Virus record (IMG/VR): IMGVR_UViG_3300020469_004024
Span: 1-25,128 of that record
DNA: 25,128 bases
DNA from: a virus
Direction: 5' to 3' (one strand)
The notes below the pieces were generated by a model. That model ran no database searches and was not told where the DNA came from. It saw only the letters and a program-made list of their open reading frames with translations. The translations under genes and the position numbers were made by a program. Below, in pieces: positions 2,547 through 8,559 of the stretch; position 1 is the stretch's first letter, and every line of letters begins with the position of its first letter.

Positions 2547-2573
2547 GGCTCTCGCGCGTATACATGCCGTATG

Positions 2574-2779
2574 TGTCCCAAACGCTCCAAAACGCAGTGA
2601 TAGCAATGGAAGAGGGGTGGGACACAGGGGGGTGGACAACTAGTCTTGTCCCACGTCATCCGCTCCAAAAACAACCTCGACTGAACCCTCTAAGAGGGTG
2701 GGACAAGTGAGTGCTGTCCCAGGCTCTTGTCCCAGGGCATATTCCGCTCCAGCACTGGGATCTATAGGTGTATGGGACA
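2574..2779. repeat. iteron-like repeat cluster, candidate replication origin
   Basis: Three tandem units of about 75-80 bp each contain, in the same order, TGTCCCA, CGCTCCA and TGGGACA. Unit 1 has them at 2574, 2583 and 2618; unit 2 at 2647, 2661 and 2699; unit 3 at 2728, 2745 and 2773. One extra TGTCCCA stands at 2715. Seven copies of TGTCCCA/TGGGACA in 206 bp compare with about three expected in the whole window. A CTGAACCCTCT block is also repeated (about 2680 and 2783). The cluster spans the last 140 bp of the primase-helicase gene and the gap after it. The copies fall in different codon phases, so they are not explained by a protein repeat. Confidence 0.65.
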
Positions 2780-4871
2780 CTTCTGAACCCTCTCCACGCG
2801 CGAGAACAGCTTTATAGTTTTTAGTTTGAGATTCTTTTGGAACGTCTGAGACGATGAGTCCTCGTTTTTCTAGTCTTTGGAGCGATTTACGGATCGCAGC
2901 TGAAGATCCACGGATCAGGGAGTCATAGAAGAGATCGTCCCTGGAGCGTGAGTCTGGCCATGCCGCAACCAAACGTTGAAGAACTCTGCCGGTCACAGAC
3001 GCGGGAGAGGTGTCTTTTTCATCAACAGCTGGAGTGAAATCTGAAACGGTAAAGGAGAGGTCATCAGTCATCTGCATCACCAGCTGTGTGTTGGAGCGTC
3101 CAGACCGAGACTTCTCGATGGTTATGAGGCGGCTGTGAGCGCCTATAGAGCGTTTCTCTTCATCAGTGGGCTGTCTAAGCGCCCAGGTCTCGTCAACAGC
3201 ATCACGAATGGCTGAGGTGCCTCTGAAGCCACCATTCTTGTTGGCGTGGTGAACGATAAGGATTGTGGTTGCAGGGAAGAGGACACCATTGTTTTTGGTG
3301 AGCCAATAAAGGGGTTGAGCAAACTCAGATTTGTTTTCATCAAAGGCTCTTCCACCAGAGCAACCAATAAGTGAGTCAATGACAACCAGTTTGGGTTGAT
3401 GTTTGTGCATGAGTTTGACGAACTGTGCATAACGTTGAAGCTGCCAATCAGTCAGAAGCCTTGTGTTGTCATCAATGGGGTAATCAACCTCTTCCAGCTG
3501 CTCTTTAATCTGCATCAAGCTTTGATCACCATTGAGCAGCAATATTGGCCCTTGTGCTACTGGGACGTGATTACCTCTAACGAGAAACGGTTTACCCATA
3601 GATATATGTTTAGCGAGAGCCCATGCTGTCATTGATTTACCATCACCACCAGCGCCATAGATCAAGACAACAGAGGGGTGAGGCAAGACATCAGGGATAA
3701 GGTATTCGCGTTGAGTGTCTAGCTCCATCAGCTCAGGCAAAGTTAAGATGTCTTTTTTGTTTTCATACTGAAGCTGATCAACAATCAAACGTTCTAAAGC
3801 GCCTTGATCTCTGTAGCCAGCCTGAAGGGCCAGCGTATTGAGCTTGTAGTTAACTTCAGCAGGATTATCAAGATCAAGTATTTTTTTGGCACGGTCAATT
3901 ACAACATTAAAATCAAGAGTTGCGGTACGAATTTCTTGAATTTTACGATCTTCAGCTGACGTTACAATTTTTTTTGAGTCGTCTGAAAATCGATGCCTTT
4001 CTGGATCTTCTCTATCAGCCAACCAGATCAAAGTTCCAATACCAATAGAGCCGCCCTTAAAGGAGTACCAGGCGTCTTCACAGGGATTTGAGTCTTGCCA
4101 TTCAGAGGCAAAGTCTGGATCATCTGAGGACCAAGAGGACCAGAGCATGAGGCCAGCTTCTGTAGGTAAGGCAGAGTTAATTGCCATACCAATTTTAATC
4201 CAATGATCTCTAGATCCTTTGCCTTTACATGGGATCACACCAAGGCAATCATGAATAATTTGAAAGACCTCATCTTGAGTTCTATCTGAAAAATCTAGAT
4301 CACGTTTAACCATAGTTTTTGGAGGCTGTCTCATCTCAGCCAATAGCCAATCAGGAGCCACTGGAATGGAATCAAGATCGCCTTCAATTTTATATTGACC
4401 AGGCTCAGAAGTTTTACCGCCTGGATAAGCACCAAAAATCACACCTTGACGCTTTGAGTTCCACAAGATTTCATAATCCTGATCACCCAATCCTCTACCT
4501 TTGACTTCATTCCAAAGATGTTCTGGAACGCGAAAGAGATATTTAGCAGCATTAGCCTTAGTGGAGGTAACGATAGGAGCTTTGTGGAGCGTCGAGCCCC
4601 AGGTTTTTAGGAGTTTTTTTAAGCCACGATCAACATCGAGGATAACGATACCGTTACCTCTGATCCCAGTAAAAACGCCAACGGCCTGAAGGTCGCTGTT
4701 TTTTTGGCACGCCAAGGCGACATCAGCTGGCCCAAACTTATGATCAAAACTAGCTTCTAAAGGATTTTTACCAACTGCCGGTTTACCGGAAACCATTGAA
4801 GCATTTTTGCGGTAGATGGGTGCATAGACCAGCCCTGATGGCAGGGAGTTGACGAAATCAAGAAAGTTCAT
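2640..4871 (-). CDS. primase-polymerase / PriCT-2 / RecA-type helicase fusion
   Basis: This 743-residue replication protein has three recognisable parts. Residues about 1-190 fit a bifunctional primase-polymerase domain, with an acidic VILDVDRG near residue 76. Residues about 203-285 match PriCT-2 (DEVFQIIHDCLG, WIKIGMAINS, WSSWSSDDP). Residues about 385-620 form a RepA/DnaB-like RecA ATPase: Walker A GAGGDGKS at 406-413 with Lys412, Walker B LVVIDS with Asp499, and IVHHANKNGGFRGTSAIRD as the downstream motif. A winged-helix-like segment (about 635-690) precedes a low-complexity tail encoded by the iteron-like DNA. It would prime and unwind phage DNA at the origin. The start ATG at 4871 has no clear Shine-Dalgarno. 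It leads the minus cluster 4871-1271 and is driven by the leftward promoter near 4967-4995. Confidence 0.88.
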   Translation of the reverse strand: MNFLDFVNSLPSGLVYAPIYRKNASMVSGKPAVGKNPLEASFDHKFGPADVALACQKNSDLQAVGVFTGIRGNGIVILDVDRGLKKLLKTWGSTLHKAPIVTSTKANAAKYLFRVPEHLWNEVKGRGLGDQDYEILWNSKRQGVIFGAYPGGKTSEPGQYKIEGDLDSIPVAPDWLLAEMRQPPKTMVKRDLDFSDRTQDEVFQIIHDCLGVIPCKGKGSRDHWIKIGMAINSALPTEAGLMLWSSWSSDDPDFASEWQDSNPCEDAWYSFKGGSIGIGTLIWLADREDPERHRFSDDSKKIVTSAEDRKIQEIRTATLDFNVVIDRAKKILDLDNPAEVNYKLNTLALQAGYRDQGALERLIVDQLQYENKKDILTLPELMELDTQREYLIPDVLPHPSVVLIYGAGGDGKSMTAWALAKHISMGKPFLVRGNHVPVAQGPILLLNGDQSLMQIKEQLEEVDYPIDDNTRLLTDWQLQRYAQFVKLMHKHQPKLVVIDSLIGCSGGRAFDENKSEFAQPLYWLTKNNGVLFPATTILIVHHANKNGGFRGTSAIRDAVDETWALRQPTDEEKRSIGAHSRLITIEKSRSGRSNTQLVMQMTDDLSFTVSDFTPAVDEKDTSPASVTGRVLQRLVAAWPDSRSRDDLFYDSLIRGSSAAIRKSLQRLEKRGLIVSDVPKESQTKNYKAVLARGEGSEVSHTPIDPSAGAEYALGQEPGTALTCPTLLEGSVEVVFGADDVGQD

Positions 4872-7701: not shown

Positions 7702-8559
7702 ATGCGCGATCATCTAGACAAAATGGTTGAAGATTTAGAAGTGCAGGATGGTTTAGCCGCCTTAAGGAGCTGGAAGTTAACGCAAGACAATTCTGGTGCT
7801 TTCAGGGTTTATCGAGACGAGGAGGATCGTGAGTATCATTCTGTGACTCATATTTTGAAGCACACAGCTCCAAAGAGCCAACAGGAAGCTTTGGAGCGAT
7901 GGTCAAAAAAACCTGGCAGCGAGATGCAACGCCAGAATGCGTGTGGCCGTGGGACGGTAGTTCATGAGCATTGTGAGTATGTTCTCAAGACAGCTTCAAA
8001 GTTGGCCCGTCAAAGTGCCAACAAGAAGGGATCGTGGAAGATTTGGGATGATGGTCTGGCACGTCCTCCAAAAGCCATCACCGCCTGGGCGCTTAAGAAG
8101 TCGATGGAAGGATCGCCCAAAGTTAACTGGGCAGCCCGTGAGTACGCCAGAGGCTTATCCGATTGGCTGGTGAGTGGAACGGTAACAGGGATCCACGCAT
8201 CAGAGTTCAGCATTAGCCATACATCAGGTTTTGCTGGAACGGCAGACGCTTTAATTGACACACCGTTAGGGCTAACAATCTGTGATTTTAAGACAAGTTC
8301 TAGGGAGTCAGACAAGCCTGAATCATGGCTTGTGGATCACCAGGACCAGCTGGGAGCTTATAGCCTGGGTTTACAGGAGATGATCGGATTAAGGGTAAAA
8401 GCTGGAGCGATCATCATTGGAAAACCAAACGGCACTGTGCAGTTAAGGATGTTGAGTGAGTTAGAGATGCGTGGCTGCGAGTGTAGATGGAGTGAGCGTT
8501 TAAGTCGTTATCAGGCTATGTTGAGCACTGGAGCGTTAGAACTAAATGCCTTGCAGTAA
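7702..8559 (+). CDS. PD-(D/E)XK exonuclease, RecB/Cas4-like
   Basis: This 285-residue nuclease shows the RecB-family order of motifs: RGTVVHEHCEYVL (about 83-95) as the helical motif with a histidine, SGFAGTADALIDT with Asp182, ICDFKTSS with Asp195-Phe196-Lys197, and DQLGAYSLGL (215-224) as the QxxxY motif. These form the two-metal active site. Phage members act as 5'-3' exonucleases in recombination or in breaking down host DNA. It starts at an ATG after a 52-bp gap that follows the zinc-ribbon operon, so it may be read through from there. Its 3' end overlaps the next small gene by 14 bp. Confidence 0.85.
   Translation: MRDHLDKMVEDLEVQDGLAALRSWKLTQDNSGAFRVYRDEEDREYHSVTHILKHTAPKSQQEALERWSKKPGSEMQRQNACGRGTVVHEHCEYVLKTASKLARQSANKKGSWKIWDDGLARPPKAITAWALKKSMEGSPKVNWAAREYARGLSDWLVSGTVTGIHASEFSISHTSGFAGTADALIDTPLGLTICDFKTSSRESDKPESWLVDHQDQLGAYSLGLQEMIGLRVKAGAIIIGKPNGTVQLRMLSELEMRGCECRWSERLSRYQAMLSTGALELNALQ

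Follow-up and report, generated by a model that had tools for sequence, protein, structure and literature searches.

Does the cluster of short repeats at the end of a marine phage's primase gene mark the origin of replication, and which protein would recognize it? The cluster lies at positions 2574 to 2779 of the window, a stretch of 25,128 nucleotides that makes up positions 1 to 25,128 of the IMG/VR virus record IMGVR_UViG_3300020469_004024, and it overlaps the 3' end of a primase-helicase gene on the minus strand. The first-pass annotation had described it as a threefold repeat unit and a likely origin.

Structure of the repeat array

TGTCCCA was matched 9 times in the window, compared with 2.3 expected, and 7 of the 9 matches were inside 206 bp. 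The copies listed at the outset were all present, with TGTCCCA on the plus strand at 2574, 2647, 2715 and 2728, TGGGACA on the plus strand at 2618, 2699 and 2773, and CGCTCCA at 2583, 2661 and 2745. Together with one degenerate site, the seven exact TGTCCCA/TGGGACA sites formed the array below.

2553..2558, no strand, CGCGCG flanking element, mirror position of 2797-2802
2574..2580, plus strand, iteron TGTCCCA, mirror partner 2773-2779
2583..2589, minus strand, polar word TGGAGCG in the array, reads CGCTCCA on the plus strand
2618..2624, minus strand, iteron TGTCCCA, mirror partner 2728-2734
2632..2638, minus strand, degenerate iteron TGTCCAC, exact TGTCCCA in many relatives, mirror partner 2715-2721
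2647..2653, plus strand, iteron TGTCCCA, mirror partner 2699-2705
2661..2667, minus strand, polar word TGGAGCG in the array, reads CGCTCCA on the plus strand
2699..2705, minus strand, iteron TGTCCCA, mirror partner 2647-2653
2715..2721, plus strand, iteron TGTCCCA, mirror partner 2632-2638
2728..2734, plus strand, iteron TGTCCCA, mirror partner 2618-2624
2745..2751, minus strand, polar word TGGAGCG in the array, reads CGCTCCA on the plus strand
2773..2779, minus strand, iteron TGTCCCA, mirror partner 2574-2580
2797..2802, no strand, CGCGCG flanking element, mirror position of 2553-2558

The eight sites followed one another in the order > < < > < > > <, and the start positions of mirror partners gave nearly the same sum throughout (2574+2773, 2618+2728, 2632+2715 and 2647+2699 gave 5347, 5346, 5347 and 5346). 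The array was two-fold symmetric with its centre near 2676, and the two CGCGCG elements (2553 and 2797) flanked it at nearly equal distance. Since the degenerate eighth site completes the dyad, the array is a palindrome of eight sites and not three direct units; the repeats themselves were real, while their grouping by threes gave way to the mirror-symmetric description. The statement that the copies are in different codon phases was right for TGTCCCA/TGGGACA, which were found in all three phases, but not for the three CGCTCCA, which share one phase. The three TGGAGCG words had one common orientation, which broke the dyad symmetry.

Among 110 arrays with at least six sites, 50% showed full mirror symmetry, versus 1.1% when gaps and orientations were shuffled. 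The densest 250 bp outside the array held at most one TGTCCCA-type site in the window and 14 related genomes, and such a cluster was unique in each of the 15 genomes; several copies of a short word, clustered and found once per genome, are the makeup of an iteron module. The G+C content of the array was 55%, and no marked AT-rich unwinding element was revealed beside it, the best nearby 40-mer being a modest one with 72.5% AT at 2803.

The primase-helicase and its winged helix

2640..4871, minus strand, primase-helicase gene of 743 amino acids with Prim-Pol, PriCT_2, AAA_25 (RepA/DnaB-like ATPase) and C-terminal winged helix
2802..3002, minus strand, codons of the predicted C-terminal winged helix (residues about 624-690), placed by AlphaFold2 model and alignment
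2889..2891, minus strand, codon of Arg661, a recognition-helix residue which covaries with iteron positions 6-7

The gene running from 4871 to 2640 encoded the Prim-Pol (PF09250), PriCT_2 and AAA_25 domains. In the AlphaFold2 model of the full protein, for which 19 relatives were used (mean pLDDT 76, pTM 0.45), the RepA/DnaB-like ATPase was followed by a winged helix with helices at 626-636, 644-648 and 657-669 and strands at 673-676 and 685-688. The model placed residue 661 (the bracketed R of AAI[R]KSLQRL) within the recognition helix 657-669, and residues 683-685 were at the wing. The tail from 691 to 743, which is coded by the array, was predicted to be disordered. The winged helix modelled alone without alignment was poor (pLDDT 51) and was left out of the analysis, and a search by sequence revealed no relatives with solved structure.

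Primase, helicase and C-terminal winged helix were thus in one single chain, as in proteins of the P4 alpha type, with a Prim-Pol of PF09250 in place of the bacterial (Toprim) primase. The PrimPol of phage S-2L was considered as a protein of the same type and rejected, as inspection revealed no winged-helix motif in it and no TGTCC array.

To the left of the array, two small proteins on the minus strand (2141-2401 and 1271-1564) looked by eye like ribbon-helix-helix DNA-binding proteins, and the one at 2141-2401 weakly matched a transcriptional repressor in PHROG. A dCTP deaminase-like protein (Pfam DCD) was encoded at 532-1050 and a phage exonuclease (PHROG 298) at 7702-8559, both on the plus strand. 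Relatives of the portal and terminase included cyanophages, from which a picocyanobacterial host is guessed for this phage.

Conservation among relatives

A first scan of viral contigs yielded 71 relatives, and profile scans raised the number to over 500, with the best 80 per query kept; about 290 related loci were compared. The relatives are metagenomic contigs, many of them partial. No relatives were found in the search of bacterial genomes. The array was at the same position in most of the about 290 relatives, and its conservation among those which share the primase, on which the original reading had been made to depend, was clear, since nearly all of them have it at this location. Relatives without TGTCCCA had the same layout, with all copies switched together to another word and the TGTCC core kept constant; the words filling their arrays included TGTCCAGG, TGTCCCC, TGTCCCCCGGTC and TTGTCCAATTGC, among others. 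In 46 representatives the stop codon of the primase gene fell within the array; in 78 others it came after the array, and in 2 it preceded it. Because the array was retained whether coding or not, it is the DNA that is conserved.

Covariation of residue 661 and the iteron

In the first 65 arrays, residue 661 was the sole perfect predictor of the word class among 739 alignment columns, with TGTCCCA in 41 of 41 arrays for R, TGTCCCC in 21 of 21 for K, and TGTCCA in 3 of 3 for Q or H. The code after TGTCC could be written as TGTCC(C/T)A for R, TGTCCC(C/G) for K and TGTCCA for Q/H. The rule was built on these 65 arrays, and loci fetched later were used as the test set. Applied strictly, it was right for 131 of the 140 held-out arrays that were callable and had one of the residues R, K, Q and H (94%, versus 34% shuffled); besides these, the test set contained 28 arrays without a clear word and 9 with a residue lacking a rule. 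Six of the nine misses differed from the rule by a single letter, having TGTCCTA where 661 is R or TGTCCCG where it is K. The other three, L247, L272 and L286, were genuine rule breakers, and L247 and L286 also deviated at residue 664 or 665. Word calls were anchored on TGTCC, and unanchored 7-mer counts agreed with them.

On a tree built without the winged helix, 24 changes of word class were counted and independent pairs were compared. Of 18 pairs differing in the presence of R, 16 also differed in the word in the same direction and none in the opposite one (p = 3e-5); for K it was 9 of 9 (p = 0.004); the Q/H/S/T class had the same trend, which was not significant with supported branches alone. 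By mutual information, residue 661 was linked to iteron positions 6-7. Positions 8-10 were linked more weakly, and mainly to residues 683-685 near the wing. Contacts of recognition helix and wing in this geometry are expected for a winged helix on DNA.

Judged from this covariation, the winged helix of the primase-helicase very probably binds the TGTCCCA sites, and Arg661 would set the letters of all copies. The proposal that these are iterons of the primase-helicase, inside and next to its own gene, was therefore strongly supported, through residue-base covariation and not for the reasons given originally. Some of the word switches may be exchanges in which winged helix and array moved together as one linked module.

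Arrays of short sites can also serve as centromeres or operators, and another phage protein, for example the ribbon-helix-helix-like one at 2141-2401, might bind the array for partition or repression, with the primase residue hitch-hiking by linkage. The array and the primase gene are indeed physically linked, and the weak repressor match adjoins the array. Hitch-hiking, however, would hit neighbouring columns equally, whereas, after training on the first set, residue 661 gave the right word in 88% of the 163 called test loci, compared with 56% for the column ranked second. The associated residues are also located where a winged helix touches DNA, and in the distant relatives that were read the sequence beyond the array differed while primase and array remained together. 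Binding by such another protein is thus considered highly improbable.

Two further groups of arrays were observed. Arrays of loci with Gly661 (L204, L206, L209, L213-L215, L217, L220, L222, L227-L232, L236, L237, L245, L246 and L248) were mostly without a uniform word and mostly had TGTCCT-like sites, which might reflect a relaxed specificity or the help of a partner protein. At L302 the core was changed from TGTCC to TGTCG, with 6 copies of TGTCGCAT after the primase winged helix, and the recognition helix read LNRL instead of LQRL, so that Q665, one helical turn from 661, was now N. This single case gives a hint that residue 665 could read iteron position 5.

Proposed function of the array

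We estimate a probability of roughly 0.8 that the array consists of binding sites for the winged helix of its own primase-helicase and is most likely the replication origin. The role as origin is likely by analogy with the P4 alpha, pRN1, SaPI/SCCmec and PLE systems, and the presence of Prim-Pol, ATPase and winged helix in one chain suits an initiator. Initiator subunits would occupy the eight sites in two halves that mirror each other, the RepA/DnaB-like ATPase linked to them would assemble as a hexamer and open the DNA, and the linked Prim-Pol domain would lay the first primer.

Covariation speaks for binding and not for its purpose, and the array might instead be an operator through which the primase-helicase regulates either the gene that encodes it or the small genes on the left, with replication starting elsewhere. 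Its location, with the primase stop on one side and a small same-strand gene on the other, would fit this. On the other hand, the primase gene has the array at its 3' end, often entirely within coding sequence, no promoter-like site was found inside it in a scan limited to the sigma-70 type, and eight mirror-symmetric sites together with the sharp edge of the polar word described below suit an origin better. An operator is therefore thought unlikely.

The sites also form inverted pairs, and pRN1, whose protein combines a winged helix with Prim-Pol and helicase, relies on a stem-loop located 3' of that protein's gene (PMC4234260), so an origin recognized as single-strand structure rather than as duplex sites was considered. 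The array strand folded no better than its shuffles (z -0.5), without the long stem-loop of the pRN1 type. Between L006 and L010 the orientations of single sites were flipped in mirror pairs with distances unchanged, and the iteron letters track the recognition-helix residue, all of which makes a stem-loop origin very improbable here.

Polar word and replication direction

TGGARCG was present 39 times in the window versus 4.4 expected, and among over-represented polar 7-mers of the window's clade it ranked first or close to first, with TGGTRCG also in relatives. Its orientation followed the genome strand and not gene direction (113 plus versus 24 minus copies on minus-strand genes), and an effect of codons was rejected for this reason. 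TGGARCG as a general cyanophage word was rejected as well, for it was not enriched in S-2L, KBS-S-2A and the S-CBS4 stretch, the hosts of which may differ.

Over 10 kb rightward of the array there were 182 plus and 10 minus copies of TGGARCG, whereas at distances up to 120 bp from the gene end the counts were 0 plus and 21 minus. In the first kb leftward the word was mixed (15 plus versus 14 minus), and farther left it was mainly plus again. TGGWRCG had essentially one orientation inside 126 representative arrays (160 versus 7), while the counts in their flanks were 111 versus 659 over the 2.5 kb toward the primase and 337 versus 402 on the other side. The edge of polarity at the array was sharp and conserved, yet no genome-wide mirror switch took place there. 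The switch of TGGARCG, which had been offered as independent support for an origin, thus held as a sharp change at the array with inverted copies inside, but not as a clean reversal, given the left flank.

A change of GC skew at the array had also been predicted, and its absence named as grounds against an origin; the sign of the skew was constant in 16 of 16 genomes. Together with the left flank, mixed and then plus, this led us to reject a symmetric bidirectional origin. The constant skew argues against that kind of origin and not against iteron binding, and a constant skew with a polarity edge lacking a mirror switch favours one-directional replication. The claim of an origin remained likely by the analogies above, with the unchanged skew and the unmirrored polarity on the left counting against it.

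The polarity data would fit replication that runs mainly rightward and is primed at TGGARCG, although this is speculation. The three words in the array would prime the rightward leading strand, and those to its right, which have the opposite orientation, would prime the lagging strand, which would give mainly one-way replication. In a more specific and rather doubtful form of this idea, the dyad would bind two initiator assemblies symmetrically and the direction would be written by TGGARCG as the template start site of Prim-Pol; the inverted copies in the origin would start the leading strand, and the copies spread to the right along the lagging template would serve Okazaki primers. If true, the origin and a genome-wide grammar of priming would be set by one polypeptide whose specificity is readable from sequence.

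TGGARCG could also be a Chi-like recombination hot-spot or a packaging word, with no link to the array's role as origin, a reading to which we give somewhat less than even odds. Chi-like words are likewise over-represented and polar, and the polarity of TGGARCG is genome-wide and independent of gene direction. Against this, TGGWRCG is dense and inverted within the arrays, the polarity edge coincides with the array, and the three other cyanophage sequences, with the reservation on hosts made above, were not enriched in TGGARCG.

Significance

The relatives make up a natural data set with hundreds of initiator/origin pairs in which the DNA specificity was switched repeatedly, and single residues could be assigned to single base positions. 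The joint change of an initiator and all copies of its site becomes directly testable, and candidate origins of uncultured phages could be predicted from protein sequence. The polar, priming-like word suggests a way to read the direction of replication.

Comparison with known systems

P4 alpha, the protein of satellite phage P4, combines primase, helicase and an origin-binding C-terminal winged helix in one polypeptide and binds origin repeats to start replication (cited in PMC4234260). The single chain and C-terminal winged helix are alike here, where the repeats are the predicted target. P4 alpha has a Toprim-type primase (PMC4234260), whereas the window protein has an archaeo-eukaryotic Prim-Pol with a RepA/DnaB-like ATPase, and its repeats are inside or at the 3' end of the initiator gene, in a dyad with TGTCC core. 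ORF904 of pRN1 shares Prim-Pol, helicase and C-terminal winged helix, with an essential element directly 3' of the gene (PMC4234260). It differs in having a 100-nt stem-loop without iterons and an SF3 helicase, compared with iterons without special folding and a RecA-fold ATPase here.

In SaPI Rep, and probably SCCmec Cch2, the C-terminal domain of the helicase binds iterons just downstream of the gene, possibly as two hexamers (PMC7581432). The short iterons at the 3' side of the helicase gene are a common feature with the window, but the primase is separate in those systems, the helicase family is different and so are the repeat words. For RepA of PLE, the ICP1 satellite, the DNA-binding domain of the initiator covaries with the origin and was swapped several times (PMC8263062). 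This covariation is alike; PLE, however, belongs to the RepA_N family with few variants and swaps of whole domains, while here hundreds of loci relate single residues to single base positions.

No description of iterons was found in the literature on CyRepA plasmid initiators. Arrays of the same placement were nevertheless observed in AAA ATPase genes of cyanobacterial plasmids, with 8 copies of TTGGACAA in pANACY.03 (L338) and 6 of AACCTAAC in Nostoc p057_I (L339), inside the 3' coding end in both. Their words differ from that of the window, and these ATPases have only about 25-28% identity to the window protein over the matched part. The 661 code is not simply transferable to them, as R occurred with S at the 665 position and with the word TTGTCCAA. 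Even so, intragenic iterons may be general in this AAA ATPase family.
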